Source: Arthrobacter sp. Soil763 (lineage in GTDB: Bacteria > Actinomycetota > Actinomycetes > Actinomycetales > Micrococcaceae). Taken from it: 64,000 nt of DNA. The notes under the pieces were generated by a model that was not told the DNA's origin, ran no database searches, and saw only the letters and a program-made list of their open reading frames with translations. Where the stretch lies: positions 439,685-503,684 of the forward strand of contig NZ_LMSH01000001.1 in the NCBI RefSeq assembly GCF_001428365.1, read 5' to 3'. Positions 14,330 through 25,432 of the stretch are shown piece after piece (position 1 is the first letter of the stretch; the number at the start of each line of letters is the position of its first letter). The position numbers and the translations under genes are program-made.

Positions 14330-14929
14330 ATGTTCACGCTGACCATCAACCAAACCGACAGCCGGCGCGACGGCGACCGTGTGCCGCAGCTCCTCAAGGA
14401 CCTGCGGCACATTCCTGCGCGCCTGGACTTCGACCGCTCGGTCGAAGACGAGGTCCAAGGCATCGTGGACTGCCCGCGCCAGGCGGTGGACGCGGCCCTG
14501 ATCGCGCTGCGGAGCGGGGCCTGGTACGTCGGGATCGGCGTCGGCCCGGTGAACGAGCCGCTGCCCAACCAGATCAAGGACGCTTCCGGCCACGGCCTGG
14601 TGTATGCCCGGCGTGCCGTGGACCGGCTGCGCAACAGCAAGGAGCGGATCCCGGTGGCGGTGGAGGGCCCGTTCTCTGACCTGGCCGCGGAGGCGGAGGC
14701 CGTCCTGCGGCTGCTGGGTCACATCGTGCACGACCGAAGCGCGGCCGAGTGGCGTGTGCTGGACCTGCTCACCCCCGGGGTCCGCGGGCAGCAGAAAGCC
14801 GTGGCCGCGGAACTCGGCATCACCACCCAGGCGGTCAGCAAGGCCGTCGCCCGGGCCCAATGGAACGAGGAGCACGCGGCGCGGCCGGCCGCGGCAAGGC
14901 TGCTGGCCCTGATCCTCGAGGTCCGCTAG
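14330..14929 (+). CDS. SatD-like protein with C-terminal helix-turn-helix
   Basis: 199 residues. The N-terminal two thirds resemble the SatD family: SVEDEVQGI, then GAWYVGIGVGPV and ASGHGLVYARRAVDRLR, a nucleotide-cyclase-like layout of GDEfQG, GiG and hAR motifs. The C-terminus holds a helix-turn-helix-like segment, AVAAELGITTQAVSKAVARA (about 160-179). Its function is unknown; a DNA-binding sensor is a guess. It converges with and overlaps the HAD gene by four bases. The family assignment is from motif memory and only moderately sure. Confidence 0.6.
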   Translation: MFTLTINQTDSRRDGDRVPQLLKDLRHIPARLDFDRSVEDEVQGIVDCPRQAVDAALIALRSGAWYVGIGVGPVNEPLPNQIKDASGHGLVYARRAVDRLRNSKERIPVAVEGPFSDLAAEAEAVLRLLGHIVHDRSAAEWRVLDLLTPGVRGQQKAVAAELGITTQAVSKAVARAQWNEEHAARPAAARLLALILEVR

Positions 14930-15774
14930 CGCAGGATGCTGCGCAGCACGTGCGCGGCGCCGTCGTCGAACACCGAGTGGGTGACCTCGTCGGCGGCGGC
15001 GATCACCTCGGCCGGCGCCTGTCCCATGGCGACGCCGCGGCGGGCCCAGGTGAGCATCTCGATGTCGTTGCGGCCGTCGCCGACCGCCACCGTGCGGTGC
15101 GCCTCGATGCTGAGCCGCCCGCGCAGCTGTTCGAGGGCGCTGGCCTTGGTGACGCCAGCGGCGGCGATGTCCAGCCAGGCTGTCCAGCCCACCGAATAGG
15201 TCACGCCGGCGAGGCCGACGTGCCGGATGGCGGCGTTGAACTCCTCCGGGGTGTTGTCCGAGCTGAAGACGACTACGCGCACGGCGGTGGCCTCCAGCAT
15301 GGTCTGGAAGTCGACGCCGATCGCCTCGACGCCGAAGCTGGCATCCTGGAAGCGTTCGGTGGACAGGAAGTTGCCGTCCTCGTCCTCCAGCGCGTACTTC
15401 GCCGCGGGCAGGCGCTTGCGCAGGGCCCGCAGCGCGGGGCCGGGATCGAAGGTGGCCTTGTGCAGCACCTGGTAGCCGTCGGCGAGGCCGGAATCAATGC
15501 GCAGGGTCACGCCGCCGTTGGAGCACACGGCGTAGCCGTTTTCGATGCCGATGTGCTCGATGATGGGCAGCGTCGCGTTGAGCGAGCGGCCGGTCGCAAT
15601 CATCACCTCGTGCCCGGCGGCCACGACCGCCTGGGCGGCCTCCCGCACGGGAACGGACATGTGCCCGTCGTGGTCGACGAGGGTACCGTCGACGTCCAGG
15701 GCGATCATCATTTTTTCGTTTGCACTTCGCTGGTCATCGTTGCCAGCGACTGAGGCTTCAGTCAATGTAGTCAT
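14926..15774 (-). CDS. HAD-superfamily phosphatase (Cof/IIB type)
   Basis: 282 residues. A haloacid-dehalogenase phosphatase acting on small phosphorylated metabolites. Motif I is MIALDVDGTLVDHDG (near residues 22-36), motif II ATGRSL, the KASALEQL lysine motif III, and motif IV VAVGDGRNDIEML. The large C2 cap between them makes it the Cof-like IIB class. The ATG at 15774 is used; a start upstream is open and a later ATG directly before the HAD core is also possible. It lies downstream of serS by 92 bases on the same strand. Confidence 0.85.
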   Translation of the reverse strand: MTTLTEASVAGNDDQRSANEKMMIALDVDGTLVDHDGHMSVPVREAAQAVVAAGHEVMIATGRSLNATLPIIEHIGIENGYAVCSNGGVTLRIDSGLADGYQVLHKATFDPGPALRALRKRLPAAKYALEDEDGNFLSTERFQDASFGVEAIGVDFQTMLEATAVRVVVFSSDNTPEEFNAAIRHVGLAGVTYSVGWTAWLDIAAAGVTKASALEQLRGRLSIEAHRTVAVGDGRNDIEMLTWARRGVAMGQAPAEVIAAADEVTHSVFDDGAAHVLRSILR

Positions 15775-15866
15775 CCCACAAGTAGAGCAGACACCGCCGA
15801 CAGCTGCTAGGACGCGCGCCACAGCGCGGTATGAAGCTCCGGTGAACAGCTGCCGGCGGCGGGTGG

Positions 15867-17147
15867 TTAGAGAACGGGCAGGACGGTCATCCCGCCGAGG
15901 TACTTCTGCAGCGCCGCCGGGACGTTGACCGAACCGTCGGCGTTCTGGTGGTGCTCCAGGAGAGCCACGATCCAGCGGGTCGTGGCCAGGGTGCCGTTGA
16001 GCGTCGCAACTGCGCGGGTGCCCTTCGGTGCGCCGTCCTCGGCCACCACGCGTTCGCGGATGTTGAGCCGGCGGGCCTGGAAGGTGGTGCAGTTGGACGT
16101 GGAGGTCAGCTCACGGTAGGCGCCCTGGGTGGGAACCCAGGCCTCGCAGTCGAACTTCCGCGCCGCCGAGGTGCCAAGGTCCCCAGCAGCGGTGTCGATG
16201 ACCCGGTAGGGAAGCTCGCACTTGGCCAGCATCTCCTCTTCCCAGGCCAGCAGGCGGGCGTGCTCGGCGGCAGCTTCCTCGACCGTGGTGTAGATGAACA
16301 TCTCGACCTTGTTGAACTGGTGCACGCGGATGATCCCGCGGGTGTCCTTGCCGTGCGAGCCGGCCTCGCGGCGGTAGCAGGAGCTCTGGCCGGCGTAGCG
16401 GACCGGTCCGGCGCTCAGGTCCAGGATTTCGTCGGCGTGATAGCCGGCAAGTGCCACCTCGGAGGTGCCCACAAGGTACAGGTCATCTTCGGCCAGGCGG
16501 TAGATCTCGGCGTCGTGCTTGACGTCGAAACCGGTGCCCTGCATGGTTTCCGGGCGGACCAGCGTCGGCGTGATCATCGGGATGAAGCCGGCGTCGATGG
16601 CCTGGTCCATGGCCATCTGCAGCAGCGCCATCTCCAGCCGGGCGCCCACGCCGCGCAGGAAGTAGAAGCGCGAGCCGGAGACCTTGGCGCCGCGTTCCAT
16701 GTCGATCGCGCCGATCAGCTCGCCGATCTCCAGGTGGTCCCTGGGCTCGAAGTCGGGGAACTCGCGGGGCGCCCCCACCGTCTTAAGCACGACGTAGTCG
16801 TCCTCGCCGCCCGCCGGCACGCCTTCTTCGACCAGGTTGGGGATGCCGCGCAGCAGTTCCTCCTGGGCCGCCTGGGCGACGTCGGCCTCGGCGGAGGCCT
16901 CCTTCACGGACGCGGCAAGGACCTTGACCTCGGCGAGCAGGGCCTGCTTTTCCTCGCCCTTGGCCTGCGCGACCTTCTTGCCGAAAGCGTTCTGCTCCGC
17001 GCGCAGGTTTTCGTAGCGGATCAGGGCCGCACGCCGGGACGCGTCCGCGGCGATGATCGCGTCCACCACGGATTCGTCGGCGCCGCGGGCGCGCTGGCTG
17101 GCACGGAACTTGTCCGGATTTTCGCTGAGGTCTTTTACGTCGATCAC
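15867..17147 (-). CDS. serS: seryl-tRNA synthetase
   Basis: 426 residues. A class II aminoacyl-tRNA synthetase that charges tRNA-Ser. The N-terminal coiled-coil arm (about 30-100, [20 protein letters not shown] onward) is followed by the catalytic core. Motif 2 is seen in [20 protein letters not shown] and motif 3 in [15 protein letters not shown]. The start is taken at GTG 17147 because [15 protein letters not shown] is the standard N-terminus; the open frame runs 67 codons further without support. No Shine-Dalgarno is present, but TACCCT lies six bases upstream, so the mRNA is probably leaderless. Confidence 0.96.
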
Positions 17148-17153
17148 CTGATA

Positions 17154-17159
17154 AGGGTA
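17154..17159 (-). promoter_or_regulatory. candidate -10 box (TACCCT) for leaderless serS mRNA
   Basis: TACCCT on the minus strand with exactly six bases to the GTG start. It shares the 78-base divergent gap with the diacylglycerol-kinase-like gene, which has its own TAGTGT nine bases before its ATG. Confidence 0.5.
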
Positions 17160-17225
17160 TCGAATCCGGGGGCCGCCCTCCGGCAGTCCTGCCGCGTCCC
17201 GCCTGCGGGATAGTGTTGGACCAAC

Positions 17226-18323
17226 ATGAGCGACTGGCTGCTGTACCTCGTCATCGCTGGAGTCCTGGTTTTTGCCCTCTCCAGCTGGTGGGGTGTGCGC
17301 CGGTTGAAGGCCCGCCACATGCGCAGCGCCGTCTGGGAAGAGACGCACAACCCCGGGCTGGCCAAGCAGCGGGTCGCGGTGGTGCTGAACCCGATCAAGT
17401 CACGGTCCGCCGAGGCGCGCGCGCTGGTCGAGAGCGCCTGCCTCGCGGCCGGCTGGGAGGCGCCGCGCTTTTTCGAGACGACGGCTGAGGACCCCGGTTT
17501 TTCCCAGGCCCGCGCGGCGGTGGAGTACGGCGCCGACGTCGTCCTGGTGGGCGGCGGCGACGGTACGGTGCGGGTGGTGGCCGACGTCCTGGCGCACACG
17601 GACACGGCCATGGGACTGCTTCCATTGGGCACGGGGAACCTGCTGGCCCGCAACGTCCACCTCGACATCGGGGACCTGCACGGCTGCGTGGAAATCGCAC
17701 TGTTCGGTCACCAGCGCTTCATCGACACCGCCCGCATGACGGTGGAGAACACCCGCACCGGCCAGAGCGCGGAGCACGCCTTCCTGGTGATCGCCGGCAT
17801 CGGCATGGACGCCGAGGTGGTCAGCGACACCAATGACGGGCTCAAGAAAGCCGTGGGCTGGCTGGCCTACACCGAAGCCGGCGTCCGGCACCTGCCCGGC
17901 CGGCGCAAACGGGTCTCCATCGCGCTGGACGACCAGCCGGAACAGACCCGGAAGATCCGCAGCGTCTTGTTCGCCAACTGCGGCCTGATCCCCGGCGGCA
18001 TCGATTTTATCCCGCAGGCCATGATCGACGACGGCATGCTGGATGTGGTGGTGATGAGCCCGCGCAGCGCGATCGGCTGGCTGGCGATGTACTGGAAGAT
18101 TGTGCTCAAACACAAGCGGAACCTGCCCGTGATGACGTATTACCGTTCCCGCAAGATCGTGATCAAGTGCGCCGAACCCATGCCGACCCAGATCGACGGT
18201 GACCCGTCGGGCGAAGCGACGACGGTCACCGTCCGGGTGGCCCCGCGGTCCCTCCTGGTCAGGGTGAAGGAAGACTCCGCACGCGTTGACGCTGCGCGGG
18301 CCGGCGGGGCCACCGGCGCCTAG
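17226..18323 (+). CDS. diacylglycerol kinase family lipid kinase
   Basis: 365 residues. It belongs to the DAGK catalytic-domain family (lipid kinases such as YegS/DgkB/sphingosine-kinase-like). An N-terminal membrane helix ([20 protein letters not shown], about 4-23) precedes the nucleotide-binding region with VVLNPIK and [17 protein letters not shown] (GGDGT, about 101-105). [12 protein letters not shown] and [20 protein letters not shown] are further family landmarks. The lipid substrate cannot be told. TAGTGT at 17211-17216 may be its -10 box, nine bases before the ATG. It converges with a small gene, overlapping by four bases. Confidence 0.88.
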
Positions 18324-18535
18324 CTGGCTTCCTTCTTGGCTTCTTCTGCCTTCTTGGCGTCCGCCGCGGCCTTGGCGGCGCGGGCTTCCGATTGCTCGCG
18401 GATCATCGCCTGCTCCTCCTCGAAGCGCAGGCGGTCCGCACGGTCGGCGTCGTCGCCGTCCCAGTCCTGGTTCTCAGCGGTCGGCTTGGGATTCACAATC
18501 ATTCCCTGGCCGTCATTCTCCGTGCTGTCTGACAT
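18320..18535 (-). CDS. small charged hypothetical protein
   Basis: 71 residues, not assigned to a known function. The first 35 residues are Asp/Asn-rich. The C-terminal half is a strongly predicted charged helix, with runs of Ala/Lys/Glu (ARAAKAAADAKKAEEAKKEA). No Cys, no membrane segment. A strong ribosome binding site (GGAGGGAGC) about six bases before the ATG supports translation. It follows pheA on the same strand, 94 bases downstream of its stop. Confidence 0.65.
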   Translation of the reverse strand: MSDSTENDGQGMIVNPKPTAENQDWDGDDADRADRLRFEEEQAMIREQSEARAAKAAADAKKAEEAKKEAS

Positions 18536-18629
18536 CGACCTGCTCCCTCCGGTAGAGGACTACCCCAATATGGATCAGGCAAGCATACGCCTGAATCCAC
18601 GGGGCGGAAGTGCAGGATGTGGCGTGTGC

Positions 18630-19610
18630 CTACGCTGTGGGCGAAGCCTCGGGCTTGTAGTCCTGGACCACGGATGCCCCCGAGAGTATGTCCTGGACCC
18701 AGGCATGCGCGGCGCGGAATGCCTGGTCGGAGGTATGCGGGGCCACGGAGGTCCGCTGACCGTCGGCCCGGCCGTAGGAGCCGAGGAACCGGGTAGCGGG
18801 GCTGATCCGGTGCAGTCCGGCGAGGGCGTCGGCAACCCGGGCGTCCCCGACGTGCCCGTCGGCGTCGATGCTGAAGAAGTAGTGGCCCAGGTACTGCCCG
18901 GTGGGCCGGGATTCGATCCGGCTCAGGTTCACGCCGCGGGTGGCGAACTGGTCCAGGATTTCCATCAGTGCGCCGGGGCGGTCCTCCGGCAGCGGCACCA
19001 CGACCGTGGTCTTGTCCGCGCCGGTCGGTTCCGGCAGTTCACCGGGTCGCCCGACGAGAACGAAGCGGGTCACGGCTCCCGGGTTGTCGCCGATGTTTTC
19101 AGCCAGCACGGCCAGGCCGTCCTGCTCGGTGGCGACGATCGGTGCGCAGATGGCGGCGTCGTAGTGCGGTTCCGGCTCCAGCAGGCCGAGTGCCGCAGCC
19201 GCGGTCGAGGAACCCGGGATATATTCCGCATTCGGAATATGCTGGTCCACCCAGAGGCGGCACTGCGCCCAGGCGTGGCCGTGGGTCGAGATCCGGCGGA
19301 TGTCCTCAATCCGGACCCCGGGCCGGGCGACCAGCACGAAGCTGATGGGCACCAGGGCCTCGCGCAGGATCCGCAGCTCCGGACCGGTAGCGATCGCGTC
19401 GAGGGTCGCCGTCACCCCGCCCTCCACCGAATTCTCGATCGGGACCATGGCGGCATCGGCCGAGCCGTCGCGGACCTTCTCCAGGGCCGTGTTGACGTTC
19501 GAAGCGGGGACGCGCGTGGCGTCCCGGGCGCCGGGCACCTGCATCAGGGCGGCCTCGGTGAAGGTGCCTTCGGGGCCGAGGAAGGTGTAGGTGACAGGTG
19601 AGGCGGGCAT
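18630..19610 (-). CDS. pheA: prephenate dehydratase
   Basis: 326 residues. It converts prephenate to phenylpyruvate in phenylalanine synthesis. The catalytic domain has YTFLGPEGTFTEAAL at the N-terminus, VPIENSVEGGVTATLDAI and TRFVLVGR. The C-terminal ACT domain, which binds phenylalanine for feedback inhibition, carries VNLSRIESRPTG (ESRP motif). A monofunctional actinobacterial type with no chorismate mutase domain. AAGGAAC precedes the ATG. The rhodanese gene lies 15 bases upstream on the same strand, so the two are likely co-transcribed. Confidence 0.96.
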   Translation of the reverse strand: MPASPVTYTFLGPEGTFTEAALMQVPGARDATRVPASNVNTALEKVRDGSADAAMVPIENSVEGGVTATLDAIATGPELRILREALVPISFVLVARPGVRIEDIRRISTHGHAWAQCRLWVDQHIPNAEYIPGSSTAAAALGLLEPEPHYDAAICAPIVATEQDGLAVLAENIGDNPGAVTRFVLVGRPGELPEPTGADKTTVVVPLPEDRPGALMEILDQFATRGVNLSRIESRPTGQYLGHYFFSIDADGHVGDARVADALAGLHRISPATRFLGSYGRADGQRTSVAPHTSDQAFRAAHAWVQDILSGASVVQDYKPEASPTA

Positions 19611-19625
19611 CGGGTGTTCCTTCGG

Positions 19626-19952
19626 TTACAGAATGACGGGCTTGAGCCCGTTGTCGGACACGAGCGGCAGGCCGTTCTCGAGCCACTGGTCCATGCCGCC
19701 GGCGACATTGAGGGCGGAATAGCCGTTGCCGACCAGCCACTGCGCGGCGCGGAAGGACCGTCCGCCGGTGCGGCAGATGATGTAGAGGTCCTCGTCCGGG
19801 TCCAGTTCCCCCAGCCGGGCCGGGAGCTGGTCGAGGGGGATGTGCACGGCGTGCTCGGCGTGCCCGGCGGCCCACTCGTAGTCCTCGCGCACGTCCAGGA
19901 GGCGTGCCCCCTCGGGAATGTCGGAAACGGTCACGGTCTCGATGTCACTCAT
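19626..19952 (-). CDS. single-domain rhodanese-like protein
   Basis: 108 residues forming one rhodanese domain: LLDVREDYEWAAGHAEHAVH, then the active-site loop LYIICRTGGRSFRAAQWL with Cys60. The CRTGGRS loop fits a thiosulfate or persulfide sulfurtransferase. It is probably cytoplasmic. The start is set at ATG 19952 (MSDIETVTVSDIPEG), where the domain begins; the frame upstream is open for a long way only because it is antisense to the amidase gene. pheA follows after 15 bases. Confidence 0.9.
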   Translation of the reverse strand: MSDIETVTVSDIPEGARLLDVREDYEWAAGHAEHAVHIPLDQLPARLGELDPDEDLYIICRTGGRSFRAAQWLVGNGYSALNVAGGMDQWLENGLPLVSDNGLKPVIL

Positions 19953-20216
19953 GGTCGTCCTCTCCGCAGAAACCAGCTCTGCCACCAGCGTATCCCCAGC
20001 CCCGCGAAGCGCAGCCCCGACGGGCGGCAGGTTACGCTTCTGCTGACCGCAAAGGAGACCCATGCCCGCTGCACGGCCAGCCCACCGAGCATGCCCGTTC
20101 CCCCGGGCCGGAGGATGGGCATAATGCTGACCTGCCCACTCCCCGCGCCGACCACTGGGCATGTCCGTCGCGGGAGGCTGCCCGGCGCGGCGCGGGACAG
20201 CGGGGGTTGCTGACCC

Positions 20217-21692
20217 GTGGCTGAAATCCACGACCTGTCCGCCGTCGCCCTGCGGGATGCCCTGCGCAGCGGCGAGCTCTCCGCCCGGCAGGCCGCCGAG
20301 CACTTCCTGGACCGCATCACCGGGCAGAATCCGCACCTTGGCGCGTTCATCACCATCACGGCCGACAAGGCCCTCAGCGACGCCGACGCCGCGGACAGCC
20401 GCTTCGCCAGCCGCCCGCGCTCCGGCCGGTGCGAGTCCCTGCCGCCGCTGCACGGCATGCCGGTCGCGTTCAAGGACCTGACCGACGTCGCCGGGGTCAT
20501 CACGACGCACGGGAGCGCCGCTATCGAACACCGCCCGGCAGCGGCCGACGGTACGCTGGCCGCCACCCTCAAGGCTGCCGGCGTCGTCTCCCTGGGCAAG
20601 ACGCAGGTTCCCGAGTTCGGGCTGACGGCCTACAGCGAGAACCGGATTGCGCCTCCGTCGCGGAATCCCTGGGCACTGAGCCGGAGTTCCGGCGGCTCCT
20701 CGGGCGGAAGCGCCGCCGCTGTGGCCGCAGGGCTGCTGCCCTTCGCTCCTGGCTCCGACGGCGGGGGCTTCATCCGTATTCCGGCCGCCGCCTGCGGGCT
20801 GGTGGGACTGAAGCCGGGCCGCGGACTCATCCCGTCCGGGGAAAGCACCGGCGATCCGGCCAGGCTGGTTGTCGCCGGGCCGCTGGCCCGCTCGGCGGCG
20901 GACGCGGCGCTGATGCTCGACGCGCTGGTCCCGCCCGGAACAGCCGCCGGACCACCCACTGGAACAGCCGCCGGGACGGCCACGCCGCGGCCGGAGAGCT
21001 ACCTCCGGCTGGCCGCGCAGGAGCCGCCGCGGCTGCGGATCGGAATCAGCCTGGACAGCCCCTGGCAGGCAGTTTTTCCGTTCACGCCGGAGCCCGAGGC
21101 CCTCGACGCTCTCCGCGCCGGCGTCGCCCTGTTGGAGGCCGCCGGGCATGAGACCGGTGAGGCGCGGATCCGTTACGACAACCGCTACGCGGCCGCCTTC
21201 ACCACCGCCTGGACCGCCGGCGTCGGCAGTGCCCGCATCCTGCCGCACCGCGAGGCGCTCCTGACCCCGCTGACCCGGACCTTCCGGCAGCGGGCGCGGC
21301 AGCGCGGACCGGCCAGGCTGGCGGAGGCCCTCGCCTTCCTCCGGCAGTTCGAACGGGACACGGTTGCCCAGTTCAGCGCGTGGGACCTGATCCTCACCCC
21401 GTCGCTGGCCCAGACCCCGCGCCCGGTGGGCTGGTTCACCGGCGGCGCGCACGGCGACGGCTACTGGCCCGCCGCTGAACGGACTACCGACGCCGACGAG
21501 GACTACCGCAAACAATGCGAGTTCGCCCCGTGGTCCTCGCCGGTCAACGTCTGCGGACTGCCGGCCATCAGCATCCCGGTCCACTGGACCGGAGGGGCGC
21601 CCGGGACCGGCCTGCCGATGGGGATCCAGCTTGTCGGGCCGTTGGGGTCGGAGGCGCTGCTGCTGCAGGTGGCCGGGCAACTTGGCTTCTAA
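20217..21692 (+). CDS. amidase-signature family protein with altered catalytic triad
   Basis: 491 residues of the amidase-signature fold (Ser-cisSer-Lys hydrolases of amides). The Lys (AFKDLTDVAG, Lys86) and the cis-Ser (SSGGSSGGSAAAVAAG, Ser161) are present. The loop GSDGGGFIRIPAAACG has Phe185 (codon 20769-20771, TTC) where the family has the nucleophilic Ser. Spacing 86-161-185 matches the 142-217-241 triad of FAAH exactly. Either the protein is catalytically dead or altered, or the base is a mutation or error (TCC to TTC). Otherwise it resembles cyclic-dimer hydrolase-type amidases. The GTG start has only weak ribosome-binding support. Confidence 0.85.
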   Translation: MAEIHDLSAVALRDALRSGELSARQAAEHFLDRITGQNPHLGAFITITADKALSDADAADSRFASRPRSGRCESLPPLHGMPVAFKDLTDVAGVITTHGSAAIEHRPAAADGTLAATLKAAGVVSLGKTQVPEFGLTAYSENRIAPPSRNPWALSRSSGGSSGGSAAAVAAGLLPFAPGSDGGGFIRIPAAACGLVGLKPGRGLIPSGESTGDPARLVVAGPLARSAADAALMLDALVPPGTAAGPPTGTAAGTATPRPESYLRLAAQEPPRLRIGISLDSPWQAVFPFTPEPEALDALRAGVALLEAAGHETGEARIRYDNRYAAAFTTAWTAGVGSARILPHREALLTPLTRTFRQRARQRGPARLAEALAFLRQFERDTVAQFSAWDLILTPSLAQTPRPVGWFTGGAHGDGYWPAAERTTDADEDYRKQCEFAPWSSPVNVCGLPAISIPVHWTGGAPGTGLPMGIQLVGPLGSEALLLQVAGQLGF

Positions 21693-21812
21693 CAGCCGGT
21701 CAGCAGCGCCCGGCTTCCCGGCCGGCCCGCCAGCAGCCGGCGTAAATTTCCGCGGCCGGGCGCGCCTGCGGTTTACTAATGCCACATGCGGTCAACGACA
21801 CGAGAGGGATCA

Positions 21813-22925
21813 ATGAAGATCACCGGCGCAGTGCTTGAGGAAATCGGCAGGCCACGGCCGTTCGCGGAATCCAAACCGATCAGCATCACGGAACTGGAGC
21901 TCTCCGGCCCCGGGCCCACCGAGCTACTGGTCCGTCTCGAGGCCGCAGGCATCTGCCACTCGGACCTGAGCGTGGTCGATGGCAACCGGGTGCGGCCGGT
22001 GCCCATGCTGCTCGGCCACGAAGCCGCCGGACGCGTCGTCGAGGTCGGGTCGGAGGTCACGGACCTTGAGCCCGGACAGCGGGTGGTCATGTCCTTCCTG
22101 CCGCGTTGCGAGCAGTGCGCCAACTGCGCCGCCGACGGCCGGCTGCCCTGCACCGCCGGCTCCAAAAGCAACGGCGAGGGCACCCTGCTGCACGGCTCCA
22201 TGCATCTGAGCCGCGGCGGCGAACAGGTCTACCACCACCTCGGCGTCTCCGGCTTCGCGAGCCACGCCGTCGTGGACCGAGCCTCGGCAGTCGCGGTCGA
22301 CGACGACATCCCGCCGGAGGTCGCCGCCGTTCTGGGCTGCGCGGTCCTGACCGGCGGGGGCGCGGTGCTGAACGCCGCCCGGCCCCGGCCCGAAGACAGC
22401 ATCATGATCGTCGGGCTCGGCGGCGTCGGCATGGCCGCGCTGATCACCGCCGTCGCGCAGGGGATCTCGCGGATCGTGGCGGTGGACACCCTCGCGGAGA
22501 AGCTGGACCACGCCCGCCGGCTCGGCGCGCACGAGGCGTACACCCCGCAGGAAGTGGCCGAGGAGGGCGTCAAGGCCCGGTTCGTGGTGGAGTGCGCCGG
22601 CAGCGCCCGGGCCTTTGAGACCGCCTTCGCCGCGACCGACGTCGGCGGCACCACCGTCACGGCCGGCCTGCCCTCACCGGACGCCCGCGCGCAGCTCTCC
22701 CCGCTGACCATCACCGCGGAGGCACGCACAATCATCGGCAGCTACCTCGGCTCGGCGGTGCCGTCCCGGGACATCCCCAAGTATGCCCAGCTCTGGCGGG
22801 AGGGCAAGCTGCCGGTGGAAGAGCTCATCTCCTCCCGGATCGCCCTGACGGACATCAACCAGGCCATGGACCAACTCGCGGACGGCAAGGCGGTCCGGCA
22901 GGTCATCATGTTCGACGGCGACTAG
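21813..22925 (+). CDS. zinc-dependent alcohol dehydrogenase (MDR superfamily)
   Basis: 370 residues. A medium-chain zinc dehydrogenase oxidising alcohols with NAD(P). Catalytic zinc ligands lie in GICHSDL and LLGHEAAGRVVEVG. The structural-zinc lobe CEQCANCAADGRLPC has the classical four-Cys spacing. The Rossmann motif is VGLGGVGMAALI. The sequence resembles the S-(hydroxymethyl)glutathione/class III-like group, but the substrate is unproven. The ATG at 21813 follows GAGAGGG; an in-frame ATG nine codons upstream lacks support. A long palindrome begins 13 bases after the stop. Confidence 0.92.
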   Translation: MKITGAVLEEIGRPRPFAESKPISITELELSGPGPTELLVRLEAAGICHSDLSVVDGNRVRPVPMLLGHEAAGRVVEVGSEVTDLEPGQRVVMSFLPRCEQCANCAADGRLPCTAGSKSNGEGTLLHGSMHLSRGGEQVYHHLGVSGFASHAVVDRASAVAVDDDIPPEVAAVLGCAVLTGGGAVLNAARPRPEDSIMIVGLGGVGMAALITAVAQGISRIVAVDTLAEKLDHARRLGAHEAYTPQEVAEEGVKARFVVECAGSARAFETAFAATDVGGTTVTAGLPSPDARAQLSPLTITAEARTIIGSYLGSAVPSRDIPKYAQLWREGKLPVEELISSRIALTDINQAMDQLADGKAVRQVIMFDGD

Positions 22926-22937
22926 CTCCACGCGCCC

Positions 22938-22998
22938 GTTGCTCTCTCACTTATGGCTGTTAAACCGGGGGTATGGCAGCCATAAGTGATAGAGCAAC
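22938..22998. repeat. long intergenic palindrome after the alcohol dehydrogenase gene
   Basis: Arms 22938-22959 and 22977-22998 (22 bases) are reverse complements with one mismatch around a 17-base spacer. The arm reads GTTGCTCTCTCACTTATGGC and is unusually A/T-rich for this genome. It may act as a terminator for the dehydrogenase gene, but no T-run follows. Confidence 0.8.
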
Positions 22999-23041
22999 TG
23001 GGGAGGAAGCGGGGCGCGAAACACCTCCGGATTGACTTGCC

Positions 23042-23077
23042 CCGGGGCGCCGCGGATGTGACAATCGCGCGCCCCGG
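23042..23077. promoter_or_regulatory. inverted repeat in the POT transporter leader
   Basis: CCGGGGCGC (23042-23050) and GCGCCCCGG (23069-23077) flank 18 bases that contain TGTGACAAT. TTGACT, a good -35-like hexamer, lies just upstream at 23032-23037. The repeat could be an operator around the -10 region or a 5' leader hairpin for the peptide transporter, which starts at 23094 without a clear ribosome binding site. Confidence 0.4.
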
Positions 23078-23093
23078 TGTCAGCATTAAGTAA

Positions 23094-24563
<1,470 letters not shown>

Positions 24564-24568
24564 GCTGA

Positions 24569-25432
24569 ATGAGCACCCGATATCGCCCGCCGGTTGAGGC
24601 GCGCGTCTACGTCCCCGCCCCCGGCGAGGCGTCCGACGTCGAACTTCTGCCGGCGGGCGATGTCACTGAAGGTGTGGTGCGGGTTGGCGGGACCGTCCGC
24701 CGCCCGCACCAGCCGCAAAGCCTTGCCGTCGCGGAGTACCTCGACTGGCTCGAGGACGCTCGCTTTGACGGCTCACCGCGGTACCTCGGACGGGACGCGC
24801 AGGGCCGGGACGTGCTGACCTTCATGGCCGGCGGATGCGCCGGGCCGGTGCCCGAGCCCTGGGTGCAGTCCGAGGACCTGCTGGCCTCCGTGGCCCGGCT
24901 GGTCCGCCGGTTGCACGCCGCCTCGGCGGGCTACGTGCCGCGCGAGCATCCGTTCCCGGAGCGGGCTCCCCTGCCGCAGGCGGGGGCGCTGCCTGGCCCC
25001 GGGAAGCTGGTCTGCCATCTGGACGTCACGCCGCAGAACGTCGTCGTGCGGGACGGCGCCGCCGTCGGGCTGATCGATTTCGACCTCGCGGGCCCTGCCA
25101 CGGCGCTCCGGGATTCCTACAACGCCGCCATGCACTGGGCGCCGCTGCGCGACCCGGCCGATGCGTGGCCCGGGTGGGAGGGCGTGGACCCCTGCCGGCG
25201 GTTGCGGATCTTCGCCGACGCCTACGGCTGGGACGACGAGGAACGACGCCGGATTCCGGGCTTCGGCATCGAGGCCGCGGGCGTGAGCTACGAACGGATG
25301 CGGCACAACGCCGAGGTCCTTGGTGGAGGCTGGGCGCGGATGTGGGCCGACGGCGTCGGCGGACTCATCCTGCGCCGGCGCGATTGGCTCGAAGCCAATG
25401 CGGGGCGGCTGGTCCGGGCTCTTACCGGCTGA
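24569..25432 (+). CDS. aminoglycoside-phosphotransferase-like kinase
   Basis: 287 residues with the APH/choline-kinase-like fold. The catalytic loop is LVCHLDVTPQNVVVRDG (HxDxxxxN). The metal-binding segment is GLIDFDLAGPATALRDSY. The ATP-binding N-lobe is poorly recognisable, as is usual. The substrate is unknown; these motifs alone do not indicate drug resistance. It starts five bases after the peptide transporter gene and converges with a DUF4190 gene, overlapping its 3' end by 11 bases. Confidence 0.8.
   Translation: MSTRYRPPVEARVYVPAPGEASDVELLPAGDVTEGVVRVGGTVRRPHQPQSLAVAEYLDWLEDARFDGSPRYLGRDAQGRDVLTFMAGGCAGPVPEPWVQSEDLLASVARLVRRLHAASAGYVPREHPFPERAPLPQAGALPGPGKLVCHLDVTPQNVVVRDGAAVGLIDFDLAGPATALRDSYNAAMHWAPLRDPADAWPGWEGVDPCRRLRIFADAYGWDDEERRRIPGFGIEAAGVSYERMRHNAEVLGGGWARMWADGVGGLILRRRDWLEANAGRLVRALTG

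Follow-up and report, generated by a model that had tools for sequence, protein, structure and literature searches.

The window, which is the whole stretch of 64,000 nucleotides of Arthrobacter sp. Soil763 DNA analyzed here, carries a gene for an amidase-signature protein in which phenylalanine stands at the position of the catalytic nucleophile. According to a QM/MM study (PMC11708778), the nucleophile Ser of this family gives up a proton by way of cis-Ser and Lys and attacks the carbonyl. A protein with Phe in place of that Ser raises the question of whether the enzyme has recently lost its activity, has been kept for a role other than catalysis, works by another nucleophile, or owes its Phe to an error or to a mutation in the sequenced isolate. 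The gene and the codons of its triad are as follows.

20217..21692, + strand: gene for the amidase-signature protein, 491 aa, GTG start, frame unbroken until the stop codon; single copy, orthologues in 195 of 198 genomes of the genus
20472..20474, + strand: codon 86, Lys, the triad's general base (role from family knowledge and PMC11708778); Lys in 149 of 149 other orthologues
20697..20699, + strand: codon 161, cis-Ser of the triad (role from the same two sources); Ser in 149 of 149 other orthologues
20769..20771, + strand: codon 185, nucleophile position, TTC, Phe; Ser in 153 of the 154 other-genome orthologues read

The amidase and its nucleophile position

The Pfam Amidase profile (PF01425) spans the whole domain of the 491-residue protein, matching at profile positions 3-445 of 445 (E 1.1e-86; 292 bits against a cut-off of 27). 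Among the NCBIfam equivalogs, none scored above its cut-off, the top one reaching 282.5 bits against 498. By phmmer, the closest solved relative in sequence was 6-aminohexanoate-cyclic-dimer hydrolase (PDB 3a2p, E 5.7e-45 over residues 9-489), and UMG-SP proteins were also among the PDB matches. The motif SSGGSSGGS, of the Gly/Ser-rich GGSSGGS type with the cis-Ser, is present, and the glycines of the oxyanion loop are kept; in the amidase-signature family it is the backbone of this loop that binds the oxyanion (PMC11708778, PMC8393822). The AlphaFold model has a mean pLDDT of 58.1, with residues 128-223 below 50, and the active site is not judgeable from it. A literature search returned no account of this amidase and none of a natural Phe at the nucleophile position.

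On the opposite strand, an open frame of 719 aa (19626-21785, - strand) spans the entire amidase gene. The bulk of this frame looks like a high-GC shadow frame, since its family match is confined to the C-terminal end (rhodanese, residues 627-703).

Lys86 and Ser161 are 75 residues apart and Ser161 and Phe185 are 24 apart, with 99 from Lys86 to Phe185. The initial annotation, made from the letters alone, had described residue 185 as Phe encoded by TTC, one base from serine, in an undisturbed frame and with the triad spacing of FAAH. These points were borne out: the codon at 20769-20771 reads TTC and differs from a Ser codon by a single base, the frame at 20217-21692 is open over 491 aa, and the spacings of 75 and 24 equal those of UMG-SP2 and those of FAAH as quoted there. 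The nucleophile Ser of an active Ser-cisSer-Lys hydrolase, 24 residues past the cis-Ser, is absent, and Phe185 is found there instead. The phmmer alignment sets Phe185 itself at the nucleophile position, with no gap nearby, opposite the Ser of 3a2p and the Ala of 3a2q.

Residual or altered catalysis might proceed through cis-Ser161, Ser162, Ser180 or an activated water in place of residue 185. All three serines are present in the window amidase, and an accessory Cys-cisSer-Lys centre is reported for other members of the family (PMC8393822). However, the three serines are normal residues of the family rather than new ones, and the CX3C motif that carries the accessory Cys nucleophile is absent from the window amidase, whose cysteines are only at residues 72, 193, 434 and 446. 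Moreover, PMC11741061 reports a control enzyme made inactive by a Ser-to-Ala change at the residue with the cis-Ser spacing, which argues that the whole triad is needed. We regard catalysis by another nucleophile as very improbable, and Phe185 gives no sign of a new catalytic mechanism.

Distribution of Phe185 and of the gene in the genus

Orthologues were collected at a threshold of E <= 1e-60 from 198 genus genomes, the window's own included. Residue 185 was read in one orthologue per genome from 149 other genomes and then in five more genomes with split or weaker matches, which makes 154 orthologues read, against 194 other genomes of the genus that gave a match. Ser was found in 148 of the 149 and in all five of the later ones, or 153 of 154; the look at close homologues proposed in the initial annotation thus showed no conserved Phe. 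The lone orthologue without Ser (L149, G102:C1:3714785-3716302) has the peptide DVYKRQ inserted in the motif. This peptide, which we take to be the translated Nextera mosaic end, makes the exception look like an assembly artefact, with adapter left inside the assembly. The aligned residue was also Ser in all 80 named loci, whose genomes overlap partly with the per-genome survey.

The motif was further scanned with the pattern DxGGF[I/V]RxP, which covers Phe only and these flanking residues only, in 206 genus genomes and in a sample of 396 genomes of the order, members of the genus among them. The pattern matched in 2 of the 206 and in 5 of the 396, the window included in both counts. On inspection the remaining one and four matches were frames that do not encode amidases, so that neither set contained a further Phe amidase with this pattern. 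Phe185 is private to the window genome, and the change stands out from the background variation of its column. A novel subgroup of Phe-type amidases, which the initial annotation had entertained, would need Phe in more than one species; within that one pattern the window genome was the only one found, and the proposal was rejected.

The gene is also the only one of its kind in its genome. The genome (3.54 Mb, 9 contigs, 99.86% complete, 0.09% contamination) has three amidase genes: the window gene, one on contig 4 whose motif we take to be GatA-like, and a third on contig 3 that was listed in two pieces belonging to a single frame. Both of the others have Ser in the motif, and the genome contains no second copy of the window orthologue. 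The neighbourhood was compared in the 80 named loci, which come from Arthrobacter, Pseudarthrobacter, Paenarthrobacter and unclassified Micrococcaceae, 69 of them with both 6-kb flanks. Upstream of the amidase, serS, the lipid kinase gene and the rhodanese gene were present in 78 of the 80 loci and pheA in 76. The downstream genes were less conserved (alcohol dehydrogenase in 20, POT in 35 and pgm in 50 of the 80). The description of the gene as a dead paralogue, another proposal of the initial annotation, is wrong as worded, since the gene is the sole copy and sits where its orthologues do, at a conserved locus with serS and the rhodanese gene upstream in 78 of the 80 cases.

Three of the 198 genomes (G018, G134 and G194) had no match. 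G134 is just 68% complete. G018 and G194 are about 99% complete, with one contig each, and their best amidase matches are paralogues at 41% and 39% identity. In both genomes (L270 and L269, respectively) the amidase is missing between the rhodanese and alcohol dehydrogenase genes of the pheA-to-POT interval with both flanks kept, and the only trace there was a 15-residue match at E 0.25. Two other genomes have a damaged gene: in G135 (99% complete, 1% contamination) the frame shifts near residues 301-309 and Ser185 is kept, and in G025 a single in-frame TGA falls on a conserved Trp (residue 417 of the window protein).

In G029, G052 and G131 (L249-L251, L254, L256 and L258), several breaks interrupt the amidase frame, and contamination is 6-7%. 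The contamination and the number of breaks indicate that these are probably noisy assemblies rather than real losses.

The two near-complete genomes without the gene, together with the two that carry a frameshift or a stop, show that the amidase is dispensable in at least some lineages. Its presence in 195 of the 198 genomes, on the other hand, shows that it is usually worth keeping. In an alcohol dehydrogenase tree of 25 sequences, the window and G018 fell within one clade of seven species (support 0.999), with G194 outside it. Within this clade the amidase has Ser in five species (L006, L007, L008, L033 and L127), the gene is gone in one, and the window has Phe.

Constraint on the window branch

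Branch omega was calculated from Nei-Gojobori distances with a bootstrap over codons. The amidase gave 0.217 on the window branch (95% interval 0.158-0.300) and 0.146 in its sisters (0.107-0.190), a ratio of 1.48 (1.03-2.19). The gene is thus still constrained on the window branch. For eight neighbouring genes, the window-to-sister ratios were 0.86, 2.01, 2.10, 1.45, 1.30, 1.77, 2.02 and 1.09. Omega has risen generally in the window lineage, and the rise in the amidase does not go beyond it, because 1.48 lies within the 0.86-2.10 of the neighbours. Since the interval of the ratio excludes 1, a small relaxation specific to the amidase is possible. If S185F had made the gene neutral, this neutral phase would take up about 8% of the branch, with an upper bound of 18% (sister omega as the base).

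Among the flanking genes (14926-24563), omega on the window branch was higher than in the sisters by a factor of 1.3 or more in six of the eight, with several single-gene intervals including 1. The pattern is as if selection were weaker across the whole small-genome lineage of the window.

The amidase is 81-82% identical to its counterparts in G043, G189 and G077, compared with 91-97% for HAD, serS, lipid kinase, pheA, rhodanese, alcohol dehydrogenase and POT. We did not take this lower identity as a sign of relaxation: the gene is fast in the sisters too (omega 0.146), and the open reading frame at 24569-25432 is as diverged as the amidase (78-81%). That frame (+ strand) is itself fast-evolving, with omega about 0.25 in all pairs, and part of it weakly matches the APH phosphotransferase family.

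The window protein departs from its orthologues at sites other than residue 185, three of which are listed here.

21288..21290, + strand: codon 358, Gln, private; Arg in 148 of 149 others, Lys in one; near-invariant column
21297..21299, + strand: codon 361, Arg, three residues from R358Q; Gln in 147 of 149 others, His in two
21480..21482, + strand: codon 422, Arg; Trp in 148 of 149 others, one other Arg

A further departure from a near-invariant column is P325A, and W422R and P325A are each shared with one or two of the 149 other orthologues. R358Q and Q361R, three residues apart, look like an exchange. The initial annotation had called all other features of the family intact, which is right for the rest of the catalytic motif but not for the near-invariant columns changed by R358Q, W422R, Q361R and P325A.

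The window amidase has 29 private changes, of which 4 fall in columns at least 98% conserved, against 15.6 expected under neutrality. In the other 40 tips, 34 of 428 private changes fall in such columns; the share in the window (4 of 29) is higher, though not significantly (Fisher p 0.29), and would otherwise hint at relaxation having begun earlier. Decay specific to the amidase was thus shown neither by branch omega, nor by private changes in conserved columns, nor by the frame.

The same constraint bears on two other explanations. One is that the species has Ser185 and that the T read at 20770 stems from an error in base calling or assembly, or from a mutation that arose in culture in the sequenced isolate. 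A codon one base from serine, private to one genome and lying within a G-rich stretch, would fit such an origin, as would the constrained look of the rest of the gene, and the adapter peptide of L149 indicates that assemblies in the genus do err in this motif. Against it, the assembly is not a noisy one: it has 9 contigs, a completeness of 99.86%, a contamination of 0.09% and an intact amidase frame. We consider an error or an isolate mutation unlikely.

The other explanation is that catalysis was lost earlier and that the protein is maintained for a binding or structural role, with its fold under selection. The low omega of 0.217 on the window branch and the intact frame and most motifs are in line with this, and the exchange of R358Q and Q361R could be compensatory. 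However, a recent change would leave omega just as low. Phe occurs in none of the relatives read, other lineages have lost the whole gene, and the genome holds no second active copy that the protein could regulate. Maintenance as a pseudoenzyme is in our view rather improbable. Its detailed form, in which Phe185 would close the active site, Lys86 and cis-Ser161 would bind, and R358Q and Q361R would re-fit a fold held by selection at an omega of about 0.22, is more doubtful still.

Probable loss of activity and comparison with known systems

The explanation that we prefer, as judged from comparison of the sequences, is that Phe185 probably reflects a recent and unremarkable loss of activity, the gene being one that the genus can spare, and that the window gene is a natural null or near-null allele. 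Recent loss was one of three readings offered in the initial annotation and is the best supported of them: the Phe is private, the gene is otherwise constrained, and it has been lost outright elsewhere. The low omega, without an excess over the neighbouring genes, fits a recent null substitution.

The ancestor was presumably an active amide hydrolase. In it, cis-Ser161 would have given a proton to Lys86 and taken one from Ser185, and Ser185 would have attacked the carbonyl to form the acyl-enzyme. With Phe185 there would be no nucleophile to activate, and the bulky side chain would be expected to fill space beside the oxyanion loop. Because Phe185 lacks the nucleophile and would occupy that place, no acyl-enzyme should form and hydrolysis would stop. 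Since at least some lineages can dispense with the enzyme, its loss may have been tolerated, and it may have occurred late on the window lineage, or in the sequenced strain alone, before more decay accrued.

Read as a recent loss, the window gene would be a clean natural active-site null in a gene that nearly all species of the genus keep but several have lost. Annotation pipelines will label the window protein an active amidase, a label that, to judge from the motif, is probably mistaken for this genome. Should Phe turn up in other strains as well, the gene would offer a small test case for an enzyme that survives without its nucleophile.

Among known systems, the UMG-SP2 urethanase has the triad Lys91, Ser166cis and Ser190nuc (PMC11708778); its spacing of 75 and 24 is the same as in the window protein, and its nucleophile Ser190 stands where the window has Phe. 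The 6-aminohexanoate-cyclic-dimer hydrolase, the nearest solved relative in sequence, has Ser in 3a2p and Ala in 3a2q at the position of the window Phe. The Arthrobacter and Pseudarthrobacter orthologues (L035-L114) lie at the same locus with 66-81% identity in the best segment, and Ser is the aligned residue in all 80 of them, whereas the window has Phe. The plant import receptor Toc64 has an amidase-signature domain that is not known to be active and has reportedly lost the Ser, and it is a precedent for non-catalytic use of the domain. Toc64, however, has TPR repeats and a long conserved role, neither of which is seen in the window protein. Natural active-site losses in enzyme genes are already known, and the window gene is a new instance.
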